NCBI RefSeq assembly: GCF_002355595.1
Contig: NZ_AP017422.1
Coordinates: 3,534,001-3,598,000, forward strand
DNA length: 64,000 nucleotides
DNA from: Filimonas lacunae
Lineage (GTDB): Bacteria; Bacteroidota; Bacteroidia; Chitinophagales; Chitinophagaceae
Direction of reading: 5' to 3'
Of the stretch, positions 1,694-50,501 are shown piece after piece. Position numbers and translations under genes: made by a program. Position 1 is the first letter of the stretch. Each line of letters opens with the position of its first letter. The notes beneath the pieces were generated by a model that was given only the letters and a program-made list of their open reading frames with translations, was not told the origin of the DNA and did not search any database.

Positions 1694-1767
1694 AAAGCAT
1701 CGTTTTGTACTATAAAACACCCAATCGTATAGTGCTGATACAAGATAAACATTTTTTTATTATCTTT

Positions 1768-2873: not shown

Positions 2874-4088
2874 TTATCGTTTTTCATAAAAGAGCGCAGA
2901 GGTTTGCAAATGCCCCATCCCGTGGGCCAGCAATTGAGCAGTATGCAGCTTCCAGGCAATCTCCGGCATTAAGGTTTTTTTAGCCGGGTTATATAGCACA
3001 TGGTTAATTAACCAGGCATATTTATCCGCTACCAGCTTCCAGGTATAACGCCTGTTGGCTATCTCTTTCATAGCTATGGCCACCTCGTTTAATTCGTTTC
3101 TTTTTTTAGCATCAATGAGCTTTAGCAGGTCGGCCGCATTATTAAAATAAAGTGCTTTTCCTTCTGTAGTAGCTTTGTTATAAGAGACGCCGTAGGCCAT
3201 AATGGGCAGGCCCAGGTACATGGCTTCTACCAGCGAAGGGTTGGTGCCACCCGCACTATGCCCATGCACATACACATAACAATTTCCTCTTAACATATCC
3301 AGCTCACGCTGGTTGTATATGGGATCCAGCATTATGATATTCGGATACTTCCCATATTTCTCTCTCAGCTTTTTGCCATAGTCGCTGTTGTTCCAGTTAC
3401 CTACCAGCACCAGCAAATGACCCGGACGTTGTGAAAAGGCAGCCAGCACCATATCCAGGTTATTCTCTGGCTCTATCCTGCACACTTTAAAAGCATACGG
3501 GCGGTGCAAGAAAGGATATTTCTTTACATCCTCTTTTTCCGGCTTTACCGCCAGGCAGTGATCAGCACCATATTCTACTATATTGCTGAGCGTTTTGTAC
3601 CGGATGGCGGTATAATCCTGTATCGCTTCGTTATCAGAAATATCGGCATGTGAAAATTTCACTGCCATCCATTCTGCCGCCCACAGGTAAAGGCGTGCTG
3701 CTTTGCTCCACTTATTTCTTTTCCATTCAATGCCATCAATGGATATGATAATTTTCTTGCGGCTGAACAGCTTTATAAAAGGCAGCAGAAAACCACCGCT
3801 TACCCCCAGTATCAACAACACATCGGCATACCATAAAGCATGTAATATGCTAATGCTGTCGTACACTATACTTTGAATACCATTGGCCTCCCAGGGCAGG
3901 TAAATAAGGCGGGCCCCTTTATAACTGCCGGTTCTTTTTTCTTTCGGATATTTTTTACCGGAACAGTAAACGGATAAGTTACAGGTGGCGCTTAATTGTT
4001 CCACCAAATGCTCGGCAAGCGTTTCAAAACCACCATAATTTGCCGGCAATCCCACAGTGCCTATAATGGCTACATTTTTCTTTTTCAT
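2874..4088 (-). CDS. DUF1972/GT4 glycosyltransferase (rhamnosyltransferase-like)
   Basis: About 404 residues. The N-terminus carries the DUF1972 signature IGTVGLPANYGGFETLAEHL, found in rhamnosyltransferase-like enzymes of capsule and O-antigen loci. The C-terminal GT-B half has GGTNPSLVEAMYLGLP, the nucleotide-sugar site of GT4. It probably adds an early sugar to the lipid-linked oligosaccharide on the cytoplasmic face of the membrane. The ATG at 4088 (MKKKNVAIIGT) is preferred because the family starts right before the first beta strand; upstream in-frame codons run through the putative promoter at 4112-4127. It is the first gene of the operon that ends with the WecA-like gene. Confidence 0.88.
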   Translation of the reverse strand: MKKKNVAIIGTVGLPANYGGFETLAEHLVEQLSATCNLSVYCSGKKYPKEKRTGSYKGARLIYLPWEANGIQSIVYDSISILHALWYADVLLILGVSGGFLLPFIKLFSRKKIIISIDGIEWKRNKWSKAARLYLWAAEWMAVKFSHADISDNEAIQDYTAIRYKTLSNIVEYGADHCLAVKPEKEDVKKYPFLHRPYAFKVCRIEPENNLDMVLAAFSQRPGHLLVLVGNWNNSDYGKKLREKYGKYPNIIMLDPIYNQRELDMLRGNCYVYVHGHSAGGTNPSLVEAMYLGLPIMAYGVSYNKATTEGKALYFNNAADLLKLIDAKKRNELNEVAIAMKEIANRRYTWKLVADKYAWLINHVLYNPAKKTLMPEIAWKLHTAQLLAHGMGHLQTSALFYEKR

Positions 4089-4111
4089 TTCAGCAGCATT
4101 TGATATAAGCA

Positions 4112-4127
4112 TTCTATCTACATGCCA
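4112..4127 (-). promoter_or_regulatory. Sigma-54-like -24/-12 element
   Basis: On the minus strand the sequence reads TGGCA-TGTAGA-TAGAA and ends 23 nt before the start codon at 4088. TGGCA matches the -24 box and the spacing to the second block equals that of TGGCAC-N5-TTGCA promoters. The second block (TAGAA) deviates from TTGCA. The same element recurs before the other two operons of the cluster. Sigma-54 use is inferred from spacing and shared layout, not proven. Confidence 0.5.
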
Positions 4128-4180
4128 GAATAAAAACAACTGATAATCAATTCTTTTACAGCGCATCCGCTGTTACGCTC

Positions 4181-4195
4181 TTCCACCTGGTGGAA
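4181..4195. promoter_or_regulatory. Inverted repeat TTCCACC-T-GGTGGAA, putative activator-binding site
   Basis: A perfect 7-1-7 inverted repeat in the gap between two polysaccharide operons, 92 bp upstream of the glycosyltransferase start at 4088. A second half site, TTCCACC, begins exactly 21 bp further on (4202). Near-identical repeats occur at 9864 and 16964, each before another operon of the same cluster. Position and tandem 21-bp spacing suit an enhancer-binding regulator. Confidence 0.6.
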
Positions 4196-4215
4196 TACCG
4201 CTTCCACCCCATACA

Positions 4216-5319
4216 CTAGCAGGCTACTCCTTCACTATGCCCCAGTAACTGCCTGATAGCACTGCTAAACCTTTGTTGCGAGAAATGTTGTGCCCTTTCA
4301 CGGGCTGCAGATGCCAGGGTATAGTACAGGCTATCACTGGTGGCCAGCAAGGCTATATAACGGGTAAGGCTATAGCAGTCGCGAGCATCTGCATAAATAC
4401 CTTGTTCTCCATTCTGCACCAGTTCTGTAACGCCACCCACGGGGGGCACTATAGCAGGCAAACCGCAATACATGCCTTCTAATATTGTCATTCCAAAGGT
4501 TTCTATCCAGGTATCGGGTAGCGAAAAATTTACTACCAGGTGTGCCCTGCTATAAAAGGGAAGCGGATTGGCCTGCACCGGGTATATTTCGCAGTTAGCC
4601 GGCGCTGCGGTAGCCTGGCGGAATGCCTGCACTTCGGCCGCCTGCGCATTCAGCACCAGCATAAAATGTATATGGGGCATTTGCTGCGCCACTGTTATAA
4701 ACTGGTAAACTCCTTTGTATTTTTTTAAGGAACACAGCATTACTACGGTAAACGGCTCTTTTGCTTTACCTTGCTGCATTTGCATGGCTTGGCTTGTAAA
4801 CCTTTCGGGTAAAGCATTATAGATCACCGTTGTTTTGTGTTCGGGAAAGCGGAACTGCTGTTTTACATATTCCGACACAAATACCAGCATATCGGCGGTT
4901 ATGCGTGCTACGGTTACCAGCAATTGCTTTAACAGGCGTGGCTGTATGCTTACTTCATGTACATGGTAAATAATACGGCATCGCCGGCAAACGGCAGCCA
5001 GTGCTGCCCCAAAAGGCAGCAGCGTGTTGATGTATACCGTATCGCTGGCACGCAAAAAACATAACAGCCTGCCAAACAGGGTAACCTGTGCCCACATAAA
5101 ATACAGCAGGGTTAGCCACTTACGGGCATGCCACCGGTAATAAACACTATGGTATTGCACCCCTGGTATATTGCTTAATACACCTGTGCCGGATGGGGTG
5201 GCAGTAAACACATGTACCTGGCTATGTTCGCTGGCTACTTCCAGTATTTGCTGTAACACCAGCGGACTGCCACTAAAATCGTTAAGCAGGTGTACGGCTA
5301 CTATTCTTTTCAATTGCAT
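4216..5319 (-). CDS. GT4-type glycosyltransferase
   Basis: A 367-residue GT-B glycosyltransferase. Visible are an N-terminal Rossmann start (LKRIVAVHLLNDFSGSP), the linker FTVVMLCSLKKYKGVYQF and the C-terminal donor-binding block WIETFGMTILEGMYCGLP followed by VPPVGGVTELV. It should transfer a sugar from a nucleotide donor during assembly of the repeat unit; donor and linkage cannot be predicted. Its start overlaps the end of the preceding glycosyltransferase by 38 bp, indicating tight co-translation. It is the last gene of the middle operon and ends just before the regulatory gap at 4112-4215. Confidence 0.87.
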   Translation of the reverse strand: MQLKRIVAVHLLNDFSGSPLVLQQILEVASEHSQVHVFTATPSGTGVLSNIPGVQYHSVYYRWHARKWLTLLYFMWAQVTLFGRLLCFLRASDTVYINTLLPFGAALAAVCRRCRIIYHVHEVSIQPRLLKQLLVTVARITADMLVFVSEYVKQQFRFPEHKTTVIYNALPERFTSQAMQMQQGKAKEPFTVVMLCSLKKYKGVYQFITVAQQMPHIHFMLVLNAQAAEVQAFRQATAAPANCEIYPVQANPLPFYSRAHLVVNFSLPDTWIETFGMTILEGMYCGLPAIVPPVGGVTELVQNGEQGIYADARDCYSLTRYIALLATSDSLYYTLASAARERAQHFSQQRFSSAIRQLLGHSEGVAC

Positions 5320-6541
5320 AATGGTAAATATTTTTTAACATCTCGCCTCTTACACTCCACCGGAATAACTGGCAATACCGGGCTGCCGACAGTTGTTTTT
5401 CGTTTGCAGCAAAGGCTTTGTCCTGTAATAACTGTTGCAGCCTGTTGGCCAGCTTGCGGGTGGTGCACCAATAGCTTCCATGCTTTACTATCAACTGCGA
5501 ATCGGGGTGAACCAATTGCCCCGGCCCACTATTTCGTAAACAAACCACCGGTATGGCATAACGCATTACTTCCGGCACCACCATACCTGCCCCTTCATGC
5601 GAAGGATATAATAACACCGAAGCCTGTTTGTAAACGGCATCTACCTGTTCGCGGGGTAGCCAGGGTATAAATTGCACGGCATGGCTGACACCTTCGTCCT
5701 GCACCATTTTTCTTAGCAACGGCTCTAAGGGGCCACTACCCAGCAGCGTTAATTTTACCTGGCTTTGTTGCTCCGGAGGTAGAGAACGGTAAAAAAGGGC
5801 AAAACTCAACACGGTAATATCAAATCCTTTTAAAGTCACAAACCGGCCTACGGATAGTATATGAAAAGCAGCCCCTGTAAGGGGTGATGTATCTGCCAGC
5901 GTTTCTCCTGCAGCTACGGATGGATGAATAATATAATTATTTTTTAATCGTAGCTTTTGCACGGCATCTCCGTTCATACAAATAACAGCATCGGCTTTTT
6001 TCCGGCACAGGTATAAAAAAGGATCGGCATACCAGCTCACATGCTTAATAACCCATAATAACCTGTCTTTCAGGTAAGCCCTTTTTCCATACACGGGTAA
6101 CAGGTATTGCCGGGGAATTTTGGAATGATGTCCTACATGCCCCCATACAAAAGGCTTTCCCAGCAGCCACAAAAAAGAAGGCGTCCAGTCGTTATGAAAA
6201 TTCAGGTTATGCACCACATCTACCGGCAACCTGCGGTGAAGTAACCACAATGCCAGTGTAAACTGCCATCCATAGTAATACACCATACTTAACAAAGGGC
6301 CTTTTTTCCAGAACAGCATCCACAAAGGCCAATCGAAATACAGGAATCGCAGGCGTGCAAAATCGGCTTCATTTTCCGGATGTGCCTGTATATACTGTTC
6401 AATAGCAGCCCGGTTATTTTTCCTGGTTACCGCAATCACACAGTGATGGCGGAGGGCCTGCATAATCATATTCCATCCCATCGCATCTTCCGATCCCTTA
6501 TAGGGATGTACCGCGTAGGCCGTTATTAACACAGTTTTCAT
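5282..6541 (-). CDS. GT4-type glycosyltransferase
   Basis: A 419-residue GT-B enzyme beginning MKTVLITAYAVHPYKGSED, a typical open N-terminal domain of GT4 enzymes with the G-S/T loop. The C-terminal half contains ILSVGRFVTLKGFD and YPSHEGAGMVVPEVMRY, the E-x7-E donor site. It likely acts on the cytoplasmic face of the inner membrane in polysaccharide repeat-unit assembly. It lies 21 bp after the hexapeptide acyltransferase gene and overlaps the next glycosyltransferase. Substrate is unknown. Confidence 0.87.
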   Translation of the reverse strand: MKTVLITAYAVHPYKGSEDAMGWNMIMQALRHHCVIAVTRKNNRAAIEQYIQAHPENEADFARLRFLYFDWPLWMLFWKKGPLLSMVYYYGWQFTLALWLLHRRLPVDVVHNLNFHNDWTPSFLWLLGKPFVWGHVGHHSKIPRQYLLPVYGKRAYLKDRLLWVIKHVSWYADPFLYLCRKKADAVICMNGDAVQKLRLKNNYIIHPSVAAGETLADTSPLTGAAFHILSVGRFVTLKGFDITVLSFALFYRSLPPEQQSQVKLTLLGSGPLEPLLRKMVQDEGVSHAVQFIPWLPREQVDAVYKQASVLLYPSHEGAGMVVPEVMRYAIPVVCLRNSGPGQLVHPDSQLIVKHGSYWCTTRKLANRLQQLLQDKAFAANEKQLSAARYCQLFRWSVRGEMLKNIYHYAIEKNSSRTPA

Positions 6542-6562
6542 ATTATTCCTTTTCAGGGTAAA

Positions 6563-7279
6563 TCAGGCTGCTATATCCTTTACAGACTTTTCACCACGCT
6601 TTCTTAATAAACGGGCCGGCACACCTCCTATAATGCTATCCGGCGGAAAAGAGCGGTTTACTACAGCGCCGGCTGCTATTACACATCCCTCACCTATGGC
6701 AACCCCGTCTAAAATGGTAACCTTGCTGCCTATCCAGCAGTTGCGGCCTATTACAATACCGCGCCGGCTTACTCCCTGGTTTCTGATAAGCGCGGCAGTA
6801 TCATCGCAATGGTGGTTTTCGGGATGGCAGCTGAAATACTGGCCTACAATGCAATCATCGCCTATGGTAAGTCCGCCCGCTCCACCCAGGTAAGCATATT
6901 CACCAATACCTACATTGTTGCCTATGGTTATAGCATGCCCTATGTTATTGCAGGAGGTAGCCACTACCAGCCTGCTGAATGCTCCGATTCCTACATTGTT
7001 GCCTAATTGAATGCCTTGCCTGCCTAAAGCGCTCAGGGTTACATGGTCGCCCAGTTTTACAAAACGGCCCCAGCCTATCCTGCGGATATAGTGAAAACGA
7101 ACAGCACAACCCAGCATTATGTTTTTAGGGTTACGGCCACGCCCTACCACCTTACATCCCCGCAGCCATGCTTTTACCTGCATGCTAAAAAATACCAGTA
7201 TGTCAGCAGCCTGCATATCCTTATCAAATACAAATGCAGGATTACGCTGCTGCACCAGTTTTTCAATCCACTTTTTCAT
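6563..7279 (-). CDS. Hexapeptide-repeat (LbH) acyltransferase
   Basis: A 238-residue protein whose C-terminal two thirds are imperfect hexapeptide repeats such as IQLGNNVGIG, ITIGNNVGIGE, LTIGDDCIVGQ and IVIGRNCWIGS, forming a left-handed beta helix. The HPENHH segment supplies the histidines expected near the active site of the xenobiotic/sugar acetyltransferase group. It probably O-acetylates a sugar of the polysaccharide using acetyl-CoA. Its start overlaps the end of the large fusion gene upstream by 17 bp, placing it in the same operon. Confidence 0.85.
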   Translation of the reverse strand: MKKWIEKLVQQRNPAFVFDKDMQAADILVFFSMQVKAWLRGCKVVGRGRNPKNIMLGCAVRFHYIRRIGWGRFVKLGDHVTLSALGRQGIQLGNNVGIGAFSRLVVATSCNNIGHAITIGNNVGIGEYAYLGGAGGLTIGDDCIVGQYFSCHPENHHCDDTAALIRNQGVSRRGIVIGRNCWIGSKVTILDGVAIGEGCVIAAGAVVNRSFPPDSIIGGVPARLLRKRGEKSVKDIAA

Positions 7280-9758
7280 GATGCATCATTTTTATGTAAC
7301 GGAATACTATATGCAGTGTATTGGCCAGCACAATGTTTTCGAGCGGCACATATAAAGCTTTACCCGAAGCTGCTTCCAGCTGCCGGAACAGGTGCAGGTA
7401 ACTGCCGGTTAACGCACGGATGGTTTCAGGCTCCAGTTCGCGCTTCCTGCTACTGATGAGGTTTTCATCGGCGTATAAAAAAAAGTTCAGGCGGGGTTTT
7501 AGTAATAACCGGTAGCCTAGCTGCATCAGGGAAGGCGGAAGCTGAATATTGCTGCGTTTGCTATCGTTGATAAAATCGAAATAATACCGGTCGTACAATA
7601 CCACATAGCCCCTGTCAATATATTTCCATTGCACATACCACTGCCCTAGCAGGTAATCGGTATAGTAATACACAAAACGCAGCAATGACGATAACCGGTT
7701 GTGGTTGCTTCCCTGGCGTGGTAGCCTTTCAACCGACAGTTGCTCCGCTTTTTGCCTGCCGTGTTTCCAGGCACTTAAAATAGGCAGCAAGGAAGGCCTG
7801 TGCCGCAGCACCACCACTTTACGTCTTAATTGTTTGCTTATCAGTTCCCGGGTATTTTCTATCACGGTGGTTTTGCCGGCCCCGTCAACCCCGCTGAAAG
7901 TAATAACAAAGCCCCTGCGCGGAAACAGGTGTTGGAGGGTATCCCAGATATAATACACCTGGTTAAGCAGCATAGACACCCCCAAATTGTAATGTTTGGT
8001 ATGCAGCAACAGGTGAACATCTTTTTCCCACGCCGCATTGTATTCAAACACTTGTGTAAAATCCTGCACCGGCAATAAGTATTTATGCTGCAACAGCCAG
8101 GTTATTTTTCCTCCGGATGCGTTTCGTTTATCTTCAAAATGCTTCCGGTAATGCAGCGGCACACTGGCTTTATTTAACCAGTAAAACAACCAGGTATACA
8201 TAAAATCATCTGCTACAGCAGGCACTTTCAGGCCATATTCATTTACCTGAGCATACAACAACACCCGGGATGCATTCATAAACTGCAAGTGCTTACGCTT
8301 AAAAGCATGTATCAGATCCAGGTGCAGCAAACTTCCATCTGTAAGCACCATTGCCACCTGGCACATAAAGCTTTTACGCTGCACCTGCATCACCGTTACC
8401 AGGGGATGCCGTTTTAATTGTATCAGCAAATCGTTACAGCCTGCTTTACTGATACATATATCCGCATCGGCATTTTCGGGCAGGCTATCCAGCGCCTGGT
8501 ATCGCCATTTTAAAAGCGCATACCGGTAATCGGATAACATATCCTGTAATTCCTGCAACAACAGCTTTCTGGCAGCTACTTCCTTATTGCGGCAAAGGTG
8601 CCAGCCCAGTGCTTCATTCCAGGTTTGCAACAGCCACAGCACCTGTATGTGCCAGTATTGCTGCATACGGTATACCTGCATATAGTGGCTGATTTGATAG
8701 AGCAAATAATATTTTTCCAGCGTGGCAAAATCGCAGCCACTTTCACGGATAAGCCCCTTCCATTCCGGCATCTCCTGCAACGCATCCAGCTCGGCCCTGA
8801 TGGCACGATAACCACGATTACCCACAAGTATGTTAGATTGGTACACGAAATGAAAAAGATCGAACAGAAAAGGCATGCTGTTTTTACTTTGCTCCCAGTC
8901 AATCATCAACAGCTTGTCCTTTTTAAACATCACATTCCAGGGAGTAAAATCACCATGAGCGGCGGTTACAGGCAGCAGGCCATCCTGCTGTATACCCTCG
9001 TGTAACAAAACCAGTTTCTTTAGCAGTGAAGCTGGTATGCGTTCATCTTCTCCGCAGGCAAGTTTTTGCAGATTATTTTCTATGGCAGCGGCAAAGTCAG
9101 TTGCGCCATACGGCATGTGTTGCAAATGCGTTTGCAGCCATTGTTGTACAGCAGCAGCCGGCAGCTTACTAAACCGGTTGGTTCGCCGGGCATGCTGCCC
9201 TATATCTTCCAGGTAACAATTGCTGCCCGTAAAGGCTACTCCAGGCAGCTGAACAGAAGTAAAGTGCATGGCATGAAAAGCCTGTAATTGCTGATATTCT
9301 GTTGCCAGGTTTCTTTTTGCCCGCGCGGTAAGCGCTGTTTTTATAAAAGTACCCTGTTCATTGTCCGCATGTGTCATATACAGAATCGACTTACGATCGG
9401 GGCCTGTGGTACCTGAAAACCAGGCCCACTGTACATTTCTCAGCACCGCATCCGGCTCATCCAACTCTTTATGTGTAAAAAAATGAAAGCTGCCATGGGC
9501 CAGGTATCGCAGGCAGCCCAACCAGGCAGCTATTTTCACTGTTATGCTAAACAACCACGCCCTGAAACCCGCAGTATGATAAAATTTCAGGAAACAGGGT
9601 TTTCGGCTGCAGGCAGGCCAAACCCAACGAATGCTACCATCGGGATTATTTCTATAATAACAATGTATTGCCTGATCATTTATTATACCTTCCTGTAAGG
9701 AGGCTGGTATACCTGCTTTGGTAATCGACTGTATAAAAAGCAATATATCTTTATGCAT
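7263..9758 (-). CDS. Fusion: aminoglycoside-phosphotransferase-like kinase + thymidylate-kinase-like domain
   Basis: An unusual 831-residue protein. The N-terminal half contains the APH/choline-kinase catalytic signature HGDFTPWN (H268-G-D270) and the metal-binding MIDWEQ (D287), so it is a small-molecule or sugar kinase fold. A middle segment of about 230 residues is not recognised. The C-terminal ~215 residues carry a P-loop, SGVDGAGKTT (G623-T631), and YDRYYFDF, matching the thymidylate-kinase-like fold. In context the kinases probably phosphorylate a sugar or polysaccharide intermediate rather than an antibiotic or dTMP, but the substrate is unknown. It is the first gene of the middle operon, preceded by the element at 9783-9798. 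Confidence 0.75.
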   Translation of the reverse strand: MHKDILLFIQSITKAGIPASLQEGIINDQAIHCYYRNNPDGSIRWVWPACSRKPCFLKFYHTAGFRAWLFSITVKIAAWLGCLRYLAHGSFHFFTHKELDEPDAVLRNVQWAWFSGTTGPDRKSILYMTHADNEQGTFIKTALTARAKRNLATEYQQLQAFHAMHFTSVQLPGVAFTGSNCYLEDIGQHARRTNRFSKLPAAAVQQWLQTHLQHMPYGATDFAAAIENNLQKLACGEDERIPASLLKKLVLLHEGIQQDGLLPVTAAHGDFTPWNVMFKKDKLLMIDWEQSKNSMPFLFDLFHFVYQSNILVGNRGYRAIRAELDALQEMPEWKGLIRESGCDFATLEKYYLLYQISHYMQVYRMQQYWHIQVLWLLQTWNEALGWHLCRNKEVAARKLLLQELQDMLSDYRYALLKWRYQALDSLPENADADICISKAGCNDLLIQLKRHPLVTVMQVQRKSFMCQVAMVLTDGSLLHLDLIHAFKRKHLQFMNASRVLLYAQVNEYGLKVPAVADDFMYTWLFYWLNKASVPLHYRKHFEDKRNASGGKITWLLQHKYLLPVQDFTQVFEYNAAWEKDVHLLLHTKHYNLGVSMLLNQVYYIWDTLQHLFPRRGFVITFSGVDGAGKTTVIENTRELISKQLRRKVVVLRHRPSLLPILSAWKHGRQKAEQLSVERLPRQGSNHNRLSSLLRFVYYYTDYLLGQWYVQWKYIDRGYVVLYDRYYFDFINDSKRSNIQLPPSLMQLGYRLLLKPRLNFFLYADENLISSRKRELEPETIRALTGSYLHLFRQLEAASGKALYVPLENIVLANTLHIVFRYIKMMHHEKVD

Positions 9759-9782
9759 GGCAAACTGGTTTGTATATTATTT

Positions 9783-9798
9783 TTCCAGAATAATGCCA
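9783..9798 (-). promoter_or_regulatory. Sigma-54-like -24/-12 element
   Basis: The minus strand reads TGGCA-TTATTC-TGGAA and ends 24 nt before the start codon at 9758. It has the same spacing and position as the elements at 4112 and 16875. The -12 half (TGGAA) is not the textbook TTGCA, so the sigma factor assignment is tentative; the three-way conservation is what supports function. Confidence 0.5.
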
Positions 9799-9863
9799 GC
9801 CAGAAAAAGCGTCCGTAATAGCTGATAATAAACAGGTTATACAAACCACCTTCTTTTCGGTTT

Positions 9864-9878
9864 TTCCACCTGGCGGAA
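9864..9878. promoter_or_regulatory. Inverted repeat TTCCACC-T-GGCGGAA, putative activator-binding site
   Basis: A 7-1-7 inverted repeat with one mismatch, 105 bp upstream of the start at 9758. A second, weaker copy (11 of 15 matches) begins exactly 21 bp further on at 9885 and overlaps the stop codon of the polymerase gene. The pair is arranged like the one at 4181/4202, suggesting two dimers bound on the same face of the helix. Confidence 0.6.
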
Positions 9879-9886
9879 AAACCGCT

Positions 9887-11197
9887 CTACGTGGTAGAAG
9901 GCTTAACAGCAAACGCGCCCGCACGCTTTCTTTGCAGATATAATAGTTCGCGGGTAGTGCAACGCTGGTGTGGTTGCAGGCTGATAGAGAAGATAAGCAT
10001 CTGGTAAAACAGGATGCCGTAATTGGTTTCGCCAAAGATGCCAAACTCTGTAAATGAGTTTATTATTACCGGTATTAAAATACCCATCAACATCAGTTTC
10101 TTTTCTTCGGATTCGCGTAAAAAACCACGTATGGTAAAATACATCTGTACGCCTACCAGGCAAAGCCCTACAAATCCCAGGTTCATAAGCACCTGCATAA
10201 AAGTATTATGCGTCATATGCCCGGCATAAGTATGTACACTTTCAAATTTGTCCTTATAATCAATACGCATAAAACCAAAACCCAGCAAGGGTTCGCGCGG
10301 CAATCCTTCATTAATCAGCGCTTTCCAGAAGGGCATGCGTCCTGTCATAGATAATACATCATCCAGCCCTCCTTTGCGCATCACCAGTTTTTCAATGGCA
10401 ACTGGTATCACAGCTGCCACTGCGGCATAGATACTGTAAATGATCACTTTGTTTTGTAAACGCCGCACATGAAAAAACACAATTAACAGCAACCCTATCA
10501 GTGACGAACGCGACTTGGTCATGATAAGCACATAGGCCATCATTACTATCTTTACTATCGTCCACACTTTTTTCCGCAGGCGGTATAAGTCAAATATCAG
10601 GCAGGAAATACCTAAACCGCTGATCATTCCCAATTCATTCGGGTTCATAATATACCCACCCAGCCGCTTGTCTTCCCCGCCTTCTACCAGCCTGAAAAAA
10701 TCATCCGGATCGGCAAACATGCCTATCACAAACACACTTAACAACAAAAAAACGGTATTGCCCATCAGGTTATAAAAACGGATAGTATTGCCGGGGAAAT
10801 AGATGTCAAGCATCATCAGACATTTGATATAATAGAAGGCGAACAACAATCCTTCTATATCCATAAACCATTGCAGTGCGCTATAGCCAACATCTGTACT
10901 CCACAAAAAAGAGATAAAACCCAATACCAGGTACCCGAAATACAGGAAGGGCGAAAGATGGTTTTTCCATTGAAAAGAAGCCAACGCGCCCCGCTTCACA
11001 ATGCGGTGGTGTATTACAATGGCGGCAAGCGTCATACCCATTCTTCCCACCACTTTAATCAGCCTTGTAATAACCACATTCTCACTCCAGGTAAAATACC
11101 CACCCACCATTACCACCAACACCAGCAGCAGCATCCAGCCGGTTCTTTTTAAAAACAGCTGATGGGTATTCTCTGCCAGTGGTGTGTTGGCTAACAT
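9887..11197 (-). CDS. O-antigen ligase/polymerase (Wzy/WaaL-type) membrane protein
   Basis: A 436-residue polytopic protein with about ten hydrophobic segments. The Wzy_C-like block includes MTKSRSSLIGLLLIVFF and a large periplasmic loop with GLPREPLLGFGF and HTYAGHMTHNTFMQ. The loop histidines and arginines (GHMTHNTFMQVL) are characteristic of the ligase/polymerase family. It probably polymerises lipid-linked repeat units in the periplasm in a Wzx/Wzy-dependent pathway. It overlaps the upstream glycosyltransferase by 7 bp and is the last gene of the first operon. Confidence 0.85.
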   Translation of the reverse strand: MLANTPLAENTHQLFLKRTGWMLLLVLVVMVGGYFTWSENVVITRLIKVVGRMGMTLAAIVIHHRIVKRGALASFQWKNHLSPFLYFGYLVLGFISFLWSTDVGYSALQWFMDIEGLLFAFYYIKCLMMLDIYFPGNTIRFYNLMGNTVFLLLSVFVIGMFADPDDFFRLVEGGEDKRLGGYIMNPNELGMISGLGISCLIFDLYRLRKKVWTIVKIVMMAYVLIMTKSRSSLIGLLLIVFFHVRRLQNKVIIYSIYAAVAAVIPVAIEKLVMRKGGLDDVLSMTGRMPFWKALINEGLPREPLLGFGFMRIDYKDKFESVHTYAGHMTHNTFMQVLMNLGFVGLCLVGVQMYFTIRGFLRESEEKKLMLMGILIPVIINSFTEFGIFGETNYGILFYQMLIFSISLQPHQRCTTRELLYLQRKRAGAFAVKPSTT

Positions 11198-12297
11198 TGG
11201 TATAAGGCATTAAAATCCATTACAATTTTTTCCCAGTTAAAAGCTTCTGCCACCATACGCCTGGCATTATGGCAAAATGCGGCTACTGCTTCCGGTTCCC
11301 GCATGCGCTGGTATAACTGTGTTAACGCATTTTGTATCTGCTCGCCACAGGTATCCTGTATCACTATGCCGGCTTCAAACTGCCGTATGTAATTACCGGT
11401 ATTGGTGGCTTCTGTTACCATACAGGGAATACCCAGAGAGGCGGCTTCCAGCACTGCGGTTGGCAGTCCTTCGTTACGGCTGGGTGCAGCAAATACCTGG
11501 CATTGCTGCAACAGGTTGTTTTTATCTTTACCATATACAGCACCCCAGAAAACCACCTTATCTGTGATGCCCAGCATAGCAGCAATACTGGTTAATCGAT
11601 TACGTTCTGCACCATCCCCTATCATCCATAACCTTGCGCCGGGATGTGTAACAGCAAAAGCGGCAAAGCCTTCCAGCAATTCTTTCAATCCTTTGGTGTA
11701 GATATCTATCCTGCCACAATACCCTATAATAAACTGGCCGGTAACCGGGCCAATCAGCGGCAGGCATTCCAGGTCGTACCCATAGGGTATCAGCACCGAT
11801 TTACTATTGGGAAACACTTCCTGCAAACCATCCATTTCCGATTTTCCCAGCAGGTGCACTGCTTTGGCAGCCTGCAACAGCCTGCTTTCAAACCATTGAA
11901 AATACAGCTTCTTCTGCCATCTGCTTTTATGCATGGCAAGGGTATTATAACTTCCATGGGGTGTAAATACGAACGGGATGCCATGGCGCTTCAGCAACCG
12001 GGCCGCCATATACATCTGGGGCACAAAACCACCATGCAAATGAAATACGGCGTGTTGCCGGCTTTGGATAGCCGCTTGTAATGCGGGATGTAAACAAAAC
12101 GGATTGGCCGGCCTGGCAAACAACCGGGTAGTGTAATTACGCGCCGGATAATTATGCACGGGCACTTTTGTAATGCCCCATACCTCTACCTGTTTGCCAG
12201 CGCCGCATTGCCTGCCAGCCAGTTCATGCACTACCCGGTTAACGCCGTTCATACGGTCAGGATTGGCTTTGCCCAGTATCAGGTGTATGATTTCCAT
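11191..12297 (-). CDS. GT4-type glycosyltransferase
   Basis: A 368-residue GT-B glycosyltransferase. It begins MEIIHLILGKANPDRMNGVN, with acceptor-domain features HLHGGF and TPHGSYNTLA, and ends with a donor domain containing IGYCGRIDIYTKGL, APSRNEGLPTAVLEAASLG and a conserved E-x7-E pair. It should add a sugar to the growing lipid-linked unit. It overlaps both neighbours (19 bp with the flippase gene, 7 bp with the polymerase gene), so translation is probably coupled through this stretch. Confidence 0.88.
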   Translation of the reverse strand: MEIIHLILGKANPDRMNGVNRVVHELAGRQCGAGKQVEVWGITKVPVHNYPARNYTTRLFARPANPFCLHPALQAAIQSRQHAVFHLHGGFVPQMYMAARLLKRHGIPFVFTPHGSYNTLAMHKSRWQKKLYFQWFESRLLQAAKAVHLLGKSEMDGLQEVFPNSKSVLIPYGYDLECLPLIGPVTGQFIIGYCGRIDIYTKGLKELLEGFAAFAVTHPGARLWMIGDGAERNRLTSIAAMLGITDKVVFWGAVYGKDKNNLLQQCQVFAAPSRNEGLPTAVLEAASLGIPCMVTEATNTGNYIRQFEAGIVIQDTCGEQIQNALTQLYQRMREPEAVAAFCHNARRMVAEAFNWEKIVMDFNALYQC

Positions 12298-13529
12298 AAC
12301 AATGATTTTTTACGTTGCAGAATGATGAGCCAGTAAGTGATACAAATGAATTGAGAAAGAAAAAGGCCGCACAACACACCATATAGCTGCCAGTGCTGCA
12401 ATAACCAGGGTGCTACGGCAACACTCACCGCCACAGCCAGTATATAGGCCATAAAATAGGCTTTATCCAGGTGCAGGGAGCGGATGGCTATACGCACGGG
12501 ATAACCAATGGTAATTAACACATACACCAGGCTAAGGCCATACATGACAAAAGCATATTGTGCATATTGCACACCTCCCGCCAGCGTTAGCACAGGACGT
12601 GCAAAAACAGACAAGGCTATTAAAACGGGCAACATCAGCAACAGGCTTTTCTGTAACAGCACCCGCCAATAGTGCTGCAGGTGAGCGGTATGGGCGGCTG
12701 CCCTTGGCAGGGCATAACTTTCTATAGCCTGTAGCAAAACATTTAAAATACCAAAAATATATTGCGCCAAACGCAACGCACCTAAGGCGGCGGCACCTAT
12801 GTACCAGCCTGCTGCCATTACAAAAAAATACCCCGCCCCCCACTGCAATAAGGAAGAACCGAGCAACCAGCCACTTTTACTTTTTTGCACTTTCCACGTA
12901 AAGCCGGCTGCTGCTTTGGTAAGTTTGCCGGCATTTAACAGCACCATGCCTGTTGCTACTGCCGGCAGATATGACAAAGCGATAATAGCCCAGGCTACAC
13001 ACAAGGTAAGCTGGTGATAATACCAGGCCCAGCACAGGCCTGCCAGTTGCAGTGCATTGTTGAGCACATCTATTATTAGCGCATGACTGGTTTTATTACA
13101 GGTGATAAAAACCCGGCGCAAAAAATCCTGCAGCAGGTATAATACTGTAGCTACTCCCGCCCATAACACCGTAGCCTGTGCATGGCCCCCCAGCCTGTTT
13201 ACTGATAAAGGAAAAGCGAAACAGGCTGCCAGCACCACCAGCAACAACAACGCTGCAAAACCTATCTGCTGGCCCAACAGCCCTTTGGTAAACAACCGGG
13301 CATCGCCCTCGTTTAACGAAGGCTGCACCACCTGGTATACCTGCGTGGTAAAGGCCATGGTAATGGATAATATAAAAAGCTGTATCATCACTATACCTGA
13401 AAACCTGCCAAACTCCACTATTCCTAATGCCCTAGCCAGCAACAGGCTGGTACAAAAGCCTGCGCCGCTTACTACCAGCTGATCGGCCATTACCTGGTAC
13501 TTTGCCTGTATGGGAATTGCTATTTTCAT
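12279..13529 (-). CDS. Polysaccharide flippase (Wzx-like)
   Basis: About 416 residues, almost entirely hydrophobic, with 10-12 predicted membrane segments. It starts MKIAIPIQAKYQVMADQLVV and continues with FCTSLLLARALGIVEFGRF, a pattern typical of the first helices of oligosaccharide flippases (MATE/MOP superfamily). It should translocate undecaprenyl-linked repeat units across the inner membrane. The ATG at 13529 overlaps the stop of the co-polymerase gene as ATGA; longer in-frame starts would run antisense-like low-complexity sequence into the gene upstream and are not credible. It fits a Wzx/Wzy pathway with the neighbouring polymerase. Confidence 0.85.
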   Translation of the reverse strand: MKIAIPIQAKYQVMADQLVVSGAGFCTSLLLARALGIVEFGRFSGIVMIQLFILSITMAFTTQVYQVVQPSLNEGDARLFTKGLLGQQIGFAALLLLVVLAACFAFPLSVNRLGGHAQATVLWAGVATVLYLLQDFLRRVFITCNKTSHALIIDVLNNALQLAGLCWAWYYHQLTLCVAWAIIALSYLPAVATGMVLLNAGKLTKAAAGFTWKVQKSKSGWLLGSSLLQWGAGYFFVMAAGWYIGAAALGALRLAQYIFGILNVLLQAIESYALPRAAAHTAHLQHYWRVLLQKSLLLMLPVLIALSVFARPVLTLAGGVQYAQYAFVMYGLSLVYVLITIGYPVRIAIRSLHLDKAYFMAYILAVAVSVAVAPWLLQHWQLYGVLCGLFLSQFICITYWLIILQRKKSLLWKSYT

Positions 13530-15625
13530 CTGCGTATTTTTTGCACCAGCTGCAGCAGGTAATTTTTCAATTGCACCAGCAGGCTGGGTGTATAACCTGC
13601 CCTGTTCAATACAAACTGCATGGCAGGAATTTGTAATTGCTGCTTCAATACATCTGCTTCTGTAATACAGCGCTGTGGCGTGCGCCGGCTGTCTAACACA
13701 AACAGGTTGCTGGTAGCTGCCGACATCAGCACCAGCGAGGAGGCATGTGCATGAACCGGAAAATTGACTATGATCACAATATCGTATTGTAACTGCTGTT
13801 CGCGTAAATACCTGCACCATCCTTCGGGGTTTTGCAACATACCTGTAACGGTTTCTCCTGCCTGTATCAGCAATACTTTTTCGTGCAGCGTGGCTATCGC
13901 CTGGTGAAGCGCTGATGCGATATAATGCTTTCCTTCCAACGCTTTAAAGGAAGAGATGCAAATAACAGTGCCGGGAAGCAGTTGTTTTTTCAACTCCAGT
14001 TCCACCGCCCATTTTCTGAAAAAAGTGATGCGTTGCTCTGCCTTGCGGCAAAGGGGAACCGCGGCGGATAGCGGCGTTGCCGATAAACGCTGAATAGTGT
14101 CTTCGTTATTTACTTTGGCTTTTAGCGAATGCACCAAATAGATGAGCACCACACCTGCCGCTATACCCAGTATGGCTGCCAGCACCGTAATAATAGTGTA
14201 ATTGGGCGATACCGGCTTTTCCGGCACCTCGCCTTCGGAAATAATACGGTGAAAAGAAAGGGTGGCCGCTTTGGCTATTTCCGCTTCTGTTTTTTTCCCG
14301 TGTAAGAAACGGTAAATAGATTCATTCATGCTGAAGTTGCGTTCCAGTATGGTCATATTCTTTTCCCGCTCCGGCAACCCGATAAACACTTTTTCCGATT
14401 CGTTAATGGTATTTTCCAGGTCGGTATATTGAATGTGCAAACTGCGCCCGGTGTTTTGTACACTTTCCTGCAGGTAACTGAAAATATCATTCAGTTTATC
14501 ATCTATCACTTTCACTTTCTCATGCTCGGGTGTATACTTTACCAGCAGGTCGTGCTTATCTCTTTGCAGTTCTTTTATTTTTTTTACCAGCTCGGTACTG
14601 AGCAAATCGGTAAAAGCTTCAAAATTGGGAGCCAGATCCAGGAAGTGATCTTTTCCCAAACTTATATAGTGGTTAAGACTATCCATGGCATTGAGGCTCA
14701 TTTGCACACTGGCCAGTTGCTTTTTTAAATCTGCAATTTTGCGCAGGTCGGTTTCTGTTTCCTGCCGGATATTGATAATGCGTTTACGATTGCGGTAGCT
14801 TTCTATATCCCCTTCGCTGGTACTTAGTTTATGGCTGAATGTATCCAGTTGCTTGGTTAAAAACTGCTCGGTAGTATCGGCCGATTTATATTTCTGCTCA
14901 ATATAATCGGCAATATAAGTGGCTGCCAGTGCATTTACCACATCTGCCGACTTTTGCGGAACAGCCGATTTATAACTGATGCGCAGCACCGGCACATCTT
15001 TATCTACGGCCATAATATCCAATCCATCTATTACACTGTTCACCAGCTTGTCTTCTGCATGTACTATACATTCGTAACGGTCGTTCACCGGTAACCCCGG
15101 CCGTTGCTGTAACAGCACCTGGTTGCGCTGCAATAAAAACGTAGCCCCCTTTACGGATAGCACATGATTGAGCGTTGTGTGAAATATATCGCCAGTGGGT
15201 GCCTGTAAGGTTACCAGCGAATCGCTGGCAATTTGTATGGCAAATGGCCGGTTGTACCACCTGGCGTTGTCTATACTGGCCTGCACTATAAACGGCGCCT
15301 GGTTATACAATTCTGTTTTATGAATTTCGCCCACGCGGTAAACAGAGATGCGCAAATCAAGATGTTCCAGCATTTTCCGCACCAACACTTTCGATTTCAG
15401 CAGTTCTACTTCTGCGCTGATTTTGGTGGTGTTTACAAACACATCAAAATCTTTAAACAGGTTGCTGTTAGGCACACCTTCGTGTATATCGGCCAGCTTT
15501 ATTTTGGAAGTGCTTTCATACATAGGTGTAGCATATTTCAGGTATTTTTTAGCCAGACCTACACCTGCCATCATTGTAATGATTACAATGGGCAATCCAC
15601 GATATAACGGTTGCAGTAAATTCAT
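13526..15625 (-). CDS. Wzc-like polysaccharide co-polymerase with degenerate BY-kinase domain
   Basis: A 699-residue chain-length determinant protein: an N-terminal membrane helix (IVIITMMAGVGLA), a long periplasmic coiled-coil region, a second helix near residue 475 (VLAAILGIAAGVVLIYLV) and a cytoplasmic domain. The cytoplasmic domain aligns with bacterial tyrosine kinases but key residues are gone. The Walker A is ALEGKHY with His567 instead of Ser/Thr, the Walker A' aspartate is Gln588 (VLLIQAG) and the Walker B aspartate is Val620 (YDIVIIV). There is no C-terminal tyrosine cluster. It probably controls chain length and export through the Wza-like neighbour but is unlikely to be an active kinase. 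Confidence 0.85.
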   Translation of the reverse strand: MNLLQPLYRGLPIVIITMMAGVGLAKKYLKYATPMYESTSKIKLADIHEGVPNSNLFKDFDVFVNTTKISAEVELLKSKVLVRKMLEHLDLRISVYRVGEIHKTELYNQAPFIVQASIDNARWYNRPFAIQIASDSLVTLQAPTGDIFHTTLNHVLSVKGATFLLQRNQVLLQQRPGLPVNDRYECIVHAEDKLVNSVIDGLDIMAVDKDVPVLRISYKSAVPQKSADVVNALAATYIADYIEQKYKSADTTEQFLTKQLDTFSHKLSTSEGDIESYRNRKRIINIRQETETDLRKIADLKKQLASVQMSLNAMDSLNHYISLGKDHFLDLAPNFEAFTDLLSTELVKKIKELQRDKHDLLVKYTPEHEKVKVIDDKLNDIFSYLQESVQNTGRSLHIQYTDLENTINESEKVFIGLPEREKNMTILERNFSMNESIYRFLHGKKTEAEIAKAATLSFHRIISEGEVPEKPVSPNYTIITVLAAILGIAAGVVLIYLVHSLKAKVNNEDTIQRLSATPLSAAVPLCRKAEQRITFFRKWAVELELKKQLLPGTVICISSFKALEGKHYIASALHQAIATLHEKVLLIQAGETVTGMLQNPEGWCRYLREQQLQYDIVIIVNFPVHAHASSLVLMSAATSNLFVLDSRRTPQRCITEADVLKQQLQIPAMQFVLNRAGYTPSLLVQLKNYLLQLVQKIRR

Positions 15626-15651
15626 GATGACGGCAGGATTAATACGTTTTT

Positions 15652-16407
15652 TTAAAACACTTTCCCTAACAGCACAGCCGAGCTGATAGCAGAAGCAATA
15701 GGCACAATGGTTGAGCCGGCCCGTTTATCCCAATGCTTTCCCCGGCGGCTGGGCACATATACAATATCCCCGGGATGAATCTGCACGTTGGCGGTAGTAA
15801 ACTGCTGCATATCGGTAAGGTTTACGGTGTAGGCCACTGGCAAACTATCTACCATTCTAATCACCTGTATCTTCTTCTTGTTGGCATAAAAATCAAAATC
15901 ACCGGCCTTGCCTATCACCTCCAATAAGGTATTGTTTTCCTTATCTAAGGTGTACTTACCCGGTGTTTTTAATTCACCCAACACCGTTACTTCTTTATTC
16001 AGCACTTTTACATCTATCACGGGGTTAACGATCCACTTTTTAAAAGCGTTTTGCAGCTTCACTTTCACCTGCGCTACTGTAAGGCCCAACAGGTTTACAT
16101 TACCCAGTTTAGGTATGGCCACATAGCCTGAGTCGTCCAGCATCAGCCATTTACCGTACACTTCATTGGAGTTATATATACCGTAAACAGACCCCACACT
16201 GATGTCATCGTTATCCCAAACGCTGATGTTTATTTTATCATCTTTACGCAGTTGATAAGCATAATGCGGATTATAAGCAAATACCGTATCCTCGCGGGAA
16301 GTATTTACCTCCTGCTGCCTGCTTTGGGTTAACAGGTTTTGTGTGGCACAGGAAGTAAACAGCAGGCTGCAAAGTATTACCGGAACAAGACTGTGTATGA
16401 TTTTCAT
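15652..16407 (-). CDS. Wza-type polysaccharide export lipoprotein
   Basis: A 251-residue outer-membrane auxiliary protein. The lipoprotein signal peptide ends in LLFTSC (lipobox, Cys19). It is followed by the Poly_export domain (YQLRKDDKINISVWDNDD), a SLBB-type segment (VTVLGELKTPGKYTL) and VQIHPGDIVYVPSRRG. It should form the outer-membrane exit channel with the Wzc-like protein. The C-terminal end is hydrophobic (IASAISSAVLLGKVF). It lies 10 bp after the response regulator gene and 26 bp before the co-polymerase gene, in the same operon. Confidence 0.9.
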   Translation of the reverse strand: MKIIHSLVPVILCSLLFTSCATQNLLTQSRQQEVNTSREDTVFAYNPHYAYQLRKDDKINISVWDNDDISVGSVYGIYNSNEVYGKWLMLDDSGYVAIPKLGNVNLLGLTVAQVKVKLQNAFKKWIVNPVIDVKVLNKEVTVLGELKTPGKYTLDKENNTLLEVIGKAGDFDFYANKKKIQVIRMVDSLPVAYTVNLTDMQQFTTANVQIHPGDIVYVPSRRGKHWDKRAGSTIVPIASAISSAVLLGKVF

Positions 16408-16417
16408 AGCAGTGTTA

Positions 16418-16852
16418 TTATATTAAAGAGAAGAAGCGCCGGAATGAATTGGGATTATTCTTCCGTAACATTTCGCGTACCTCGGCTATTTTAGCCAGCA
16501 CTTTGGTCATGTTTTCCAGGTCCAGCTCGCCCTTTACTATATAATCAAAGGCCCCGTACTTTAATGCGCTCACGGCTGTTTCAATATGCTCCTGGCCCGA
16601 TAAAAAAACAACGTAAATATCCGGGTTAAAGCGCTTGATCTTTTTGAGTACATCAATGCCCGTTAATTCACGCATGCCATGATCGAGAAAGATGATATCA
16701 GGGTTTTCGGTGAGGTGATGCAGACAGTCGGCCCCACTCTCAAACAAAGAAAGATTGCTATAGCCTAATTTAGTCAGGTGCTGCTGGTAAACATGTAAAC
16801 AAAAAGCATCATCGTCTACCAGGAAAATTTTTACAGGATTGGATGTTTCCAT
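16418..16852 (-). CDS. Single-domain response regulator (REC only)
   Basis: A 144-residue protein made of one receiver domain: acidic pocket DDD at residues 13-15, phospho-acceptor Asp57 in IIFLDHGM, the switch serine in VVFLSGQ and the conserved lysine in DYIVKGE. There is no output domain; after about residue 125 only a short basic tail follows. It heads the polysaccharide export operon and so may adjust synthesis or export by protein-protein contact, like CheY-type regulators. The cognate kinase is not adjacent; the FIST/PAS pair at the left edge is one candidate. The promoter-like element at 16875 and inverted repeat at 16964 precede it. Confidence 0.88.
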   Translation of the reverse strand: METSNPVKIFLVDDDAFCLHVYQQHLTKLGYSNLSLFESGADCLHHLTENPDIIFLDHGMRELTGIDVLKKIKRFNPDIYVVFLSGQEHIETAVSALKYGAFDYIVKGELDLENMTKVLAKIAEVREMLRKNNPNSFRRFFSLI

Positions 16853-16874
16853 TGTATGTTGTTTACAGGTAGTC

Positions 16875-16890
16875 TTCCATTATGTTGCCA
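16875..16890 (-). promoter_or_regulatory. Sigma-54-like -24/-12 element
   Basis: The minus strand reads TTTTGGCA-ACATAA-TGGAA and ends 22 nt before the start codon at 16852. It is the third member of the TGGCA-N6-T(G/A)GAA set. No TAnnTTTG -7 element of the housekeeping Bacteroidota type is seen in this gap. Confidence 0.5.
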
Positions 16891-16963
16891 AAACATAATA
16901 CACTCATATTCAATGCACTAATTGAGGATTGCTGAAATAGTTATTCCATAACACGGACTGATA

Positions 16964-16978
16964 TTCCACCTGACGGAA
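16964..16978. promoter_or_regulatory. Inverted repeat TTCCACC-T-GACGGAA, putative activator-binding site
   Basis: The third copy of the cluster-specific inverted repeat, 111 bp upstream of the response regulator start and 73 bp beyond the -24-like block. The right arm differs at two positions from the perfect copy at 4181. No clear second copy is seen at +21 here. Confidence 0.5.
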
Positions 16979-17034: not shown

Positions 17035-17471
17035 ATGAAAAAAGCAATAGGGATATACCTGGCAGTTTGCTTTGCCACCTCCTGGCTACTGTGGCTGCCT
17101 TTTGTGCTTAACCATATTTGTAACACACAATGGCCAACGCTTCCTTACCAGTTTTTTATGGCATCGGCCGGCCCTTTTCTGGCAGCCATAAGTGCCCAAT
17201 GGTATGCTACTGGTTTTCGCTGCATGCTTCGTTCACCAGCATGGGTTGGGGTATTATTGGCTGGGGCATTAGTTTAACCTATGGCTCTGTGCTGCTAAGC
17301 TGGTTGTATATAAAAAGTAACTATAGCATTATACCGGTTGTAATATGGCACGGCGGGTTTGATTTACTTACTGCCGGGGATTATGTAGCGGCTGCGGTTC
17401 CGGCCACCTGCAGCATGCTGGTGATCATTCAGGGTATTTTTTTATTCCGTCGTATTCCCCAACTGTACTAA
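17035..17471 (+). pseudogene. CPBP-type intramembrane protease remnant (frameshift and internal deletion)
   Basis: The first frame encodes MKKAIGIYLAVCFATSWLLW and ASAGPFLAAISAQW, a typical N-terminus of CPBP (CAAX protease/bacteriocin-processing) membrane proteins, then stops at 17277. A second frame continues with GISLTYGSVLLSWLYIKSN and VVIWHGGFDLL, typical of the last conserved helices with the terminal histidine motif. The central EExxxR and FxxxH blocks are missing. The whole stretch is about 145 codons against a usual 220-280. I read it as a gene inactivated by an internal deletion plus frameshift. It lies directly beside the repeat island at 17.5-18.1 kb, which may have favoured rearrangement. 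Confidence 0.65.
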
Positions 17472-17527
17472 TATGAATGGAATCCTATTTCCTAATAGCC
17501 CCCATTATTAATAAATCCCTCCATTTC

Positions 17528-50499: not shown

Positions 50500-50501
50500 A
50501 C

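Follow-up and report, generated by a model that had tools for sequence, protein, structure and literature searches.

The window analysed here, a 64,000 nucleotide stretch of the Filimonas lacunae genome (contig NZ_AP017422.1, positions 3,534,001 to 3,598,000), carries a polysaccharide gene cluster that lies entirely on the minus strand and is predicted to form three operons. Operon 3 opens with a receiver-only response regulator (16418..16852), followed by a Wza-type polysaccharide export protein with SLBB domain (15652..16407), a Wzz/Wzc-like chain length protein with GNVR and Wzz domains (13526..15625), a flippase-like membrane protein (12279..13529), a GT4-type glycosyltransferase (11191..12297), and a Wzy-type polymerase/ligase (9887..11197). 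The first gene of operon 2 encodes an 831-aa protein with APH-like and thymidylate-kinase-like parts (7263..9758), for which no relatives were found in the genome contigs searched, and the operon continues with a hexapeptide acyltransferase-like protein (6563..7279) and two glycosyltransferases (5282..6541 and 4216..5319). Operon 1 would comprise a Cps2T-like glycosyltransferase (DUF1972, 2874..4088) as its first gene, a WecA-like glycosyl-1-phosphate transferase (1768..2856), a FIST-domain protein (554..1720), and the 5' part of a hybrid sensor kinase (PAS-HisKA-HATPase-REC-Hpt, 1..567) whose gene runs out of the window. The flippase-like protein has no Pfam match (its longest ORF extends to 13820) and is named by position only; it matches a protein at the equivalent place in another genome of the order (G302) at 34%. 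With Wza, Wzz, Wzy and glycosyltransferases found together, and a flippase by place only, the cluster has the composition of a Wzx/Wzy system. The FIST-domain protein is distantly NosP-like, its score of 58.5 bits being far below the NosP equivalog cut-off (NF041558, 450 bits). Some relatives have an H-NOX protein in place of the FIST sensor.

The gaps preceding the three operons share a layout on the minus strand, namely a TTCC-N7-GGAA inverted repeat and a TGGCA-N6-T(A/G)GAA element, and all coordinates that the initial annotation had given for them are correct. The -24/-12-like elements of promoter 1 (TGGCATGTAGATAGAA, 4112..4127), promoter 2 (TGGCATTATTCTGGAA, 9783..9798), and promoter 3 (TGGCAACATAATGGAA, 16875..16890) end at distances of 23, 24 and 22 nt, as had been stated, from the start codons that follow them (4088, 9758 and 16852). 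Sigma-54 geometry would place the transcription starts at approximately 4101, 9772 and 16864, with a leader of ~13 nt for operon 1. The description of the repeats as 7-1-7 palindromes holds in full for gap 1 (TTCCACCTGGTGGAA, 4181..4195, 53 bp from TGGCA), whereas one arm pair is unmatched in gap 2 (TTCCACCTGGCGGAA, 9864..9878, 65 bp from TGGCA) and two in gap 3 (TTCCACCTGACGGAA, 16964..16978, 73 bp from TGGCA). Second copies had been proposed 21 bp beyond the first at 4202 and 9885; the spacing is right, but both copies are degenerate, that of gap 1 (4202..4216) having one good half-site and that of gap 2 reading CTCTACGTGGTAGAA (9885..9899). Gap 3 also contains a second copy (GTCCGTGTTATGGAA on the coding strand, 16944..16958), missed earlier, which lies 20 bp from palindrome 3 on the promoter side and 53 bp from TGGCA. 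Inverted repeats that are often paired and lie 50-150 bp upstream are arranged like NtrC-type upstream activation sites, and we regard them as putative enhancers. An IHF-consensus-like site with one mismatch is located 30 bp before TGGCA in gap 1 (AAAAGAATTGATT, 4145..4157) and 41 bp before it in gap 2 (TAACCTGTTTATT, 9827..9839), and the best match in gap 3 has two mismatches. The element TANNTTTG, which we take to be that of Bacteroidota sigma-A, is absent from the sequences of all three gaps.

Within the window, these three places are the sole occurrences of TGGCAN6TRGAA (shuffle mean 0.39, with three reached in 1 of 100 shuffles). For the palindrome TTCCACCTGRYGGAA with up to three mismatches, each palindrome being counted once per strand, there are 18 matches where shuffles average 3.76, a number that none of 100 shuffles reaches. 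Genome-wide, neither half is special by itself. TTCCACCN4GGAA yields eight rows versus six for the reversed control, and its four places outside the three gaps are all within ORFs. TGGCAN6TRGAA yields 80 matches versus 31 for the control; seven sit 11-60 nt 5' of a gene in the sense direction, taking 4088 as the true start for gap 1, and the remaining 73 fall at least partly in ORFs that a script had selected, in a few cases just at the possible 5' end, for which reason this half alone was rejected as a genome-wide marker of the regulon. The full composite is specific: in the 7.8 Mb genome its strict form is confined to these three gaps, one copy in each, and the reversed control does not occur at all. 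Because these same three sites defined the pattern, independent evidence has to come from other genomes.

The joint search of the genome and related Chitinophagaceae that the initial annotation had called for returned 26 rows of a relaxed composite in 17 of 394 genomes, compared with two control rows. Twenty of the 26, representing 19 promoters, are classed as upstream of genes and six as in-gene. The strict composite occurs once in the 293 other genomes of the family, 52 nt before a NusG-domain gene, and a search for palindrome plus TGGCA across 396 genomes of the order gave 18 genomes, the matches checked singly being those of F. lacunae and G034. In other genera the genes behind the sites differ and include response regulator, NusG-type, secreted and FIST proteins. 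The palindrome is separated from TGGCA by 52-55 or 72-74 bp in 15 of the 19 upstream promoters, yet also in four of the six in-gene rows, which makes this spacing weak as proof; the 65 bp of gap 2 falls outside both ranges. In G302, which belongs to another family of the order, a single contig carries the sigma-54 activator gene described below and a response regulator-Wza-Wzz-flippase-like-glycosyltransferase-Wzy series, with TGGCATGTCCTTGGCA before the response regulator gene and TTCC-N7-AGAA repeats 54 and 72 bp away.

The composition of the elements was tallied over 24 sites, many of which are not independent (G031 supplies eight, the majority of them paralogous units). The search patterns fixed TGGCA and left position 6 free; this position is C or T in 23 of the 24, in 15 of the 16 outside genus g31, and in two of the three F. 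lacunae sites (gap 3 is without it). At position 7, 12 of the 24 have G. These free positions agree with the TGGCAY(G) of a sigma-54 -24 element. At the -12 half, all three F. lacunae sites have GA in place of the GC expected 10 nt after GG, and the 24 sites comprise 13 with GC, six with GA and five with GT, the general form being T(A/G)G followed by C, A or T. The relaxed composite pattern admitted only C or A in this half and no TTG, and a loose scan that permitted TTG found none there. The initial annotation had left it between a lineage variant and another sigma factor; the recurrence of T(A/G)G(C/A/T) throughout the 24 sites leans toward the former. In both RpoN proteins of F. lacunae, the helix-turn-helix position corresponding to E378 is Ile. 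The canonical TGGCAYGN4TTGCW has no match in this genome (control, four), so no canonical reference site is available there. The IHF consensus, with at most one mismatch, is found in 12 of 16 spacers (three G191 orthologues having been dropped from the set) versus 3.64 expected from shuffles, and exactly in four versus 0.25 expected; none of six in-gene spacers has it. Seven of the IHF-like sites are at 30-32 bp, and their orientation is not usable, since the scan favoured one strand on ties.

The F. lacunae genome has two copies of rpoN, and 16 strong domains of sigma-54 activators are encoded in it. One activator gene (G000:C1:3530528-3531895) is located outside the window, 2.1 kb to its left and ~6 kb away from the closest of the three sites, and converges on the polysaccharide cluster and the hybrid kinase. 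Its product has 455 aa with a REC-AAA architecture and a short C-terminal part resembling an HTH, in which Pfam HTH_8 was not reached at E 0.001. A look for the motif near NtrC-type regulators, also suggested at the outset, was fruitful: six relatives have a composite site within 0.75 kb of an activator orthologue with 61-65% identity, at distances of 28 bp (G146), 94 bp (G031 and G191), 211 bp (G013), 662 bp (G240), and 714 bp (G126), and G202 has a looser site ~350 bp from the activator ORF. Relatives of the receiver-only regulator (41-51%) are found near the activator in G202, G126, G631, G013 and G302. The composite is absent from two genomes of the same genus with activator relatives of 56% identity (G015, G114) and from G006 (60%). 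Few close relatives were among the matches listed by a scan of genome contigs with the activator alignment. Loci L271-L276 have activators that are 50-59% identical, and the promoter pattern applied to them had no match. At L273, in Rufibacter, the genes after the activator encode an OEP-type outer membrane protein and a weakly Wzz-like protein, below cut-off.

Recurrence, activator linkage, TGGCAY and the IHF-like site all favour the original proposal of enhancer sites plus a -24/-12 promoter. We consider it likely that the three gaps hold RpoN (sigma-54) promoters whose -12 half is peculiar to the lineage, and that the adjacent activator drives them as one regulon. It is unlikely that the promoters depend on sigma-54 but are served by another of the 16 activators, such as the paralogue at 5968542 (55% identity to the adjacent activator) or those at 3584937-3603424. 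Several activators do lie within 60 kb of the cluster, and the closest orthologues of the adjacent one (G034 and G118, 68%) are away from the sites of their genomes; against this, it is the orthologues of the adjacent activator that sit beside composite sites in six genomes and beside the looser one in G202, and the 8 kb around the 5968542 paralogue contain neither palindrome nor promoter pattern.

Quite improbable, in our judgement, is a scheme in which the palindromes bind another dimeric regulator, TGGCA-N6-T(A/G)GAA is an ECF or other sigma-70-family promoter or a second binding site, and the activator is unrelated. The -12 half without GC in all three F. lacunae sites, the ~6 kb to the activator and the spacing preference shared by in-gene rows are all compatible with it, as is the poor tracking of sites by activator presence alone: the activator is found in seven of eight genomes with upstream sites versus four of eight comparison genomes, two of which have looser sites, and as a predictor it was set aside as weak. 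G079 has sites and no activator was found in its assembly, which is 89% complete in 850 contigs. This scheme is opposed by the 13 of 24 sites that show GG-N10-GC spacing, by the fit of the free positions to TGGCAY(G), by the adjacency of sites to activator orthologues in six genomes, and by an IHF-like site such as a sigma-54 promoter would be expected to have; to our knowledge, ECF promoters require no distant tandem palindromes. Chance or shared ancestry, in which duplication of a single upstream region gave rise to the gaps and the motif is functionless, is very improbable. All three gaps are in one cluster, and either half by itself is frequent in the genome; against this, the gaps look dissimilar outside the elements, and in other genera the layout is retained ahead of genes of different kinds, in 26 rows versus two for the control.

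If the gaps are sigma-54 promoters of the adjacent activator, its binding sites would be the two TTCC-N7-GGAA repeats, ~53 and ~74 bp ahead of the -24 element. Bending of the intervening DNA by an IHF- or HU-like protein would then carry the activator to the closed complex of RpoN polymerase at TGGCAY-N5-T(A/G)G(C/A)A, and the activator's ATPase would open the promoter. The signal would pass from the hybrid kinase to the activator, perhaps originating at the FIST (NosP-like) sensor, and the output would be the export, chain length and flippase-like proteins, polymerase and glycosyltransferases of one extracellular polysaccharide. Promoter 1 is followed on its own strand by the FIST and kinase genes, so the circuit might regulate itself.

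Sigma-54 control in Bacteroidota appears little worked out, and the canonical promoter consensus is -24 TGGCAY and -12 TTGC(A/T), according to the parts of PMC12316311 consulted. The sites described here resemble canonical NtrC-type promoters in the -24 TGGCAY, the GG-N10 spacing, the paired upstream sites and the IHF-like site, but differ in a -12 half of T(A/G)G(C/A/T)A. If this alteration is real, sigma-54 promoter searches based on TTGCA would miss the promoters of this lineage. In the titles, abstract openings and some passages of the open-access literature we found no described regulon with this motif, in line with the initial annotation. A close parallel in those passages is PrsK-PrsR, which with RpoN controls PEP-CTERM and floc exopolysaccharide genes in Aquincola and Zoogloea; the transcription start of an RpoN promoter was mapped there, and an enhancer sequence was predicted upstream of it (PMC9850573). 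Both systems have a two-component sigma-54 activator near exopolysaccharide genes, with the same proposed working; PrsK-PrsR as described there is proteobacterial, however, and here the -12 half and enhancer differ, the kinase is accompanied by FIST or H-NOX genes, no exosortase is named among the cluster genes scanned, and the activator scores 345.4 bits against the PrsR model (TIGR02915), below its equivalog cut-off of 502.6. NosP-NahK and H-NOX-kinase nitric oxide signalling act in biofilm control. The likeness to these lies in a FIST or H-NOX gene adjoining a hybrid or multi-domain kinase beside polymer genes, and the difference in the partner, here a sigma-54 activator, and in a FIST protein so far from NosP. 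The enhancer pair, IHF-like site, -24 and altered -12 elements, together with a candidate activator, offer a concrete, testable circuit through which exopolysaccharide may be regulated in this lineage.

More tentatively, these features may belong to a so far unnamed sigma-54 circuit, in which interchangeable haem-gas sensors (NosP-like FIST or H-NOX) would signal through a kinase to one activator clade acting on promoters with a lineage-specific -12 half, perhaps resulting from the Ile at RpoN E378. It would control exopolysaccharide operons, the gene of a NusG-type antiterminator, secreted proteins and, in genus g31, a tandem sRNA array that would represent a second, independent invention resembling LuxO-Qrr, the small RNA circuit of Vibrio. 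As in that circuit, the g31 sigma-54 activator gene faces several similar sRNA-like units in tandem, and every unit has an enhancer, a -24/-12-like promoter and a terminator-like hairpin of its own; their sequence and predicted structure are unlike Qrr, and none of the 11 loci searched has an Rfam match at gathering score. An equivalent sRNA in F. lacunae was rejected, the one weak model match (E 0.004) being at a 3.1 kb locus without the promoter/enhancer pattern. Under strict filters, strong matches to the model of the g31 unit are confined to two g31 genomes among 394.

Re-reading of the sequence confirmed the coordinates that the initial annotation assigned to the palindromes and promoter-like elements in the three gaps, the intergenic regions before three minus-strand polysaccharide operons. 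These gaps hold the only TGGCAN6TRGAA places in the 64 kb window (shuffle mean 0.39; three reached by 1 of 100 shuffles). Neither pattern alone is special in the F. lacunae genome, with 8 rows against 6 in the reversed control for the palindrome and 80 against 31 for TGGCAN6TRGAA; 7 of the 80 are in sense orientation 11-60 nt 5' of a gene and 73 overlap ORFs. Sought together, as the annotation had suggested, in a strict composite (TTCCNNCNGGNGGAA-N45-75-TGGCAN6TRGAA), the two occur exactly three times in this genome, all in the three gaps, and the reversed form gave no match there. The real test lies in other genomes, because the strict pattern was drawn from these three sites.

The paired-motif finding is real. 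A search of 293 other family genomes gave the strict composite once more, in G034, where it stands 52 nt 5' of a NusG-domain gene; genes of this type come first in polysaccharide operons of Bacteroidota. With a relaxed composite, TTCCRN5TGGAA-N45-75-TGGCAN6TRGMA, the scan of 394 family genomes gave 26 rows, spread over 17 of them, versus 2 control rows, and sorting by ORF picking and reading placed 20 rows (19 promoters) upstream of genes and 6 in or overlapping genes. Sites of the upstream class precede response-regulator relatives of the window's first gene (G126, G013), a FIST gene (G146), genes for secreted proteins that end in a T9SS tail (G118, and G240 with the tail under the Pfam threshold), and units that look like sRNAs.

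The sigma-54 reading of the three gaps, as a reading of sequence, is well supported by this comparative evidence. Spacing, measured from the palindrome end to TGGCA, is 52-55 or 72-74 bp in 15 of 19 upstream promoters, a count that by itself proves little because 4 of 6 in-gene rows fit too; exceptions are gap 2 (65), G079 (67) and G146 (61). Paired sites at single promoters are more telling: 73 and 53 in gap 3, 72 and 52 in G118, 72 and 54 in G302, and 73-74 and 53-54 in units of g31, the genus of G031 and G191. The IHF consensus is YAANNNNTTGATW. After removal of three orthologous G191 rows, 12 of the 16 spacers in the upstream class contain it with one mismatch or none, versus 3.64 expected from shuffles (exact in 4, versus 0.25); none of the 6 in-gene spacers does. 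Seven of the 12 sites, four of them in G031, lie 30-32 bp 5' of TGGCA.

Over 24 sites, position 6, which the searches did not constrain, reads C or T in 23 (15 of 16 once g31 is set aside), and 12 sites have G at position 7; this matches the sigma-54 -24 element. At position 13 every site has G or A, a choice required by the relaxed search, with T permitted in the looser scan described below; at position 15, 13 sites have C, 6 have A and 5 have T. The relatives' T(A/G)GCA retains GG-N10-GC and departs from the canonical form at position 13 only; the F. lacunae cluster, G034 and G240 have, in addition, A for C. The canonical TGGCAYGN4TTGCW has no match in the F. lacunae genome (control 4). The annotation had left the -12 half between a lineage variant and another sigma factor; comparison across relatives points to the former, probably. 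The genome has two rpoN genes, whose products both retain the RpoN box (ARRTVAKYRE, ARRTVTKYRE) as well as the STxSR arginine and carry Ile where, in alignments, the compared solved sigma-54 chains have Glu. On our reading of the alignments, these positions would be E378 and R383. Passages of one report (PMC5505868) term both highly conserved and describe their cross-linking to promoter DNA. The altered -12 half may be tied to the Ile substitution. At C1:2553599-2559149 the second rpoN gene is followed immediately by a gene for an activator of NtrC type and by genes for two sensor kinases.

The F. lacunae genome encodes 16 strong sigma-54 activator domains. The candidate driver of the three promoters (C1:3530528-3531895, 455 aa) has REC and AAA domains and an HTH-like C-terminal part, to which Pfam gives no match; its best named relatives among the matches listed are Bacteroidota records. 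The annotation's suggestion to look for the motif near NtrC-type regulator genes was borne out, with an activator orthologue (61-65%) 28-714 bp from a composite site in G146, G031, G191, G013, G240 and G126. The nearest orthologues (68% each), in G034 and G118, do not lie near their genomes' sites. A looser scan of activator neighbourhoods added a response-regulator gene in G202, a DUF4402 protein in G631 and the G031 and G191 arrays. Activator presence alone is poor evidence: it is found in 7 of the 8 genomes that carry upstream sites versus 4 of 8 comparison genomes, and two of the latter, G202 and G631, showed looser sites on the later scan. G302 belongs to a different family; there, an H-NOX gene and a kinase come after the activator, and then a response regulator-Wza-Wzz-flippase-like-GT-Wzy series 34-52% identical to the window's genes. 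As far as the excerpted source goes, PrsK-PrsR/RpoN control of flocculation genes (PMC9850573) is the closest known system in way of working; unlike PrsR, our activator fails the PrsR family cut-off. Sections of a 2025 sigma-54 regulon survey give polysaccharide functions for Myxococcia and gamma-Proteobacteria and name none for Bacteroidota (PMC12316311).

The activator gene is convergent, across 17 bp, with the gene for a hybrid kinase, which in turn overlaps a FIST gene. The kinase and FIST genes share the strand of the cluster and stand 3' of promoter 1, with gaps of 17 and 47 bp among the genes ahead of them. The FIST protein weakly resembles NosP (58.5 bits, cut-off 450), and the activator gene has an H-NOX neighbour (PF07700, E 8.5e-46 to 5.3e-52) in G302, in G202 and in L275, a MAG of the Flavobacteriia. 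Gas sensing thus counts as a lead rather than a result.

In g31, tandem sRNA-like units with sigma-54-type promoters face the activator gene, five each in G031 and G191, with one extra copy on another contig in each; the units of the two genomes are located at L258 7502-9625 (minus), L259 10543-12720 (plus), L268 4540-4737 and L269 3813-4003. Every unit has its own putative enhancer, -24/-12-like promoter and terminator-like hairpin, and the conserved sequence, cut from the predicted start, is 182-198 nt. The predicted fold has both-sided changes in 6 of 27 pairs, five of them in the terminator-like hairpin, and a GAGGAGTAAATG stretch pairs in part with an upstream TTCTTCT stretch. Rfam gave no family at gathering score. 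Strong covariance-model matches in 394 genomes are these 12 units only; at E 0.01 with strict filters 6 of the 394 have any match, the four weak ones, F. lacunae among them, probably by chance. The same enhancer-promoter type lies about 345 nt 5' of secreted-looking protein genes (L267 from 4027, L270 from 3979), with a leader that starts like these units.

Elsewhere in the F. lacunae genome, genes for two small proteins that resemble each other and look secreted (VNVNIGVGAP, VNLNVGA; C1:6435663 and C1:2750322) have TGGCAT-N5-T(A/T)GAA 23 or 27 nt 5' of the start codon and lack the TTCC palindrome over the 90 bp inspected; these elements perhaps belong to another activator's regulon. The TGGCACATTATTGGA string occurs at C1:3599308 (L024 4308-4323), 5' of a gene of AraC type that neighbours two sigma-54 activators, and in G302 (L067 1746-1761), 40 nt 5' of the H-NOX gene. 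Within the window, the frame at 17035-17900, which diverges from promoter 3 and resembles a membrane protein, is interrupted by stops and frame changes, and at 48265-51869 a gene for a sensor kinase with HisKA_2 and TPRs lies immediately 5' of another sigma-54 activator gene.
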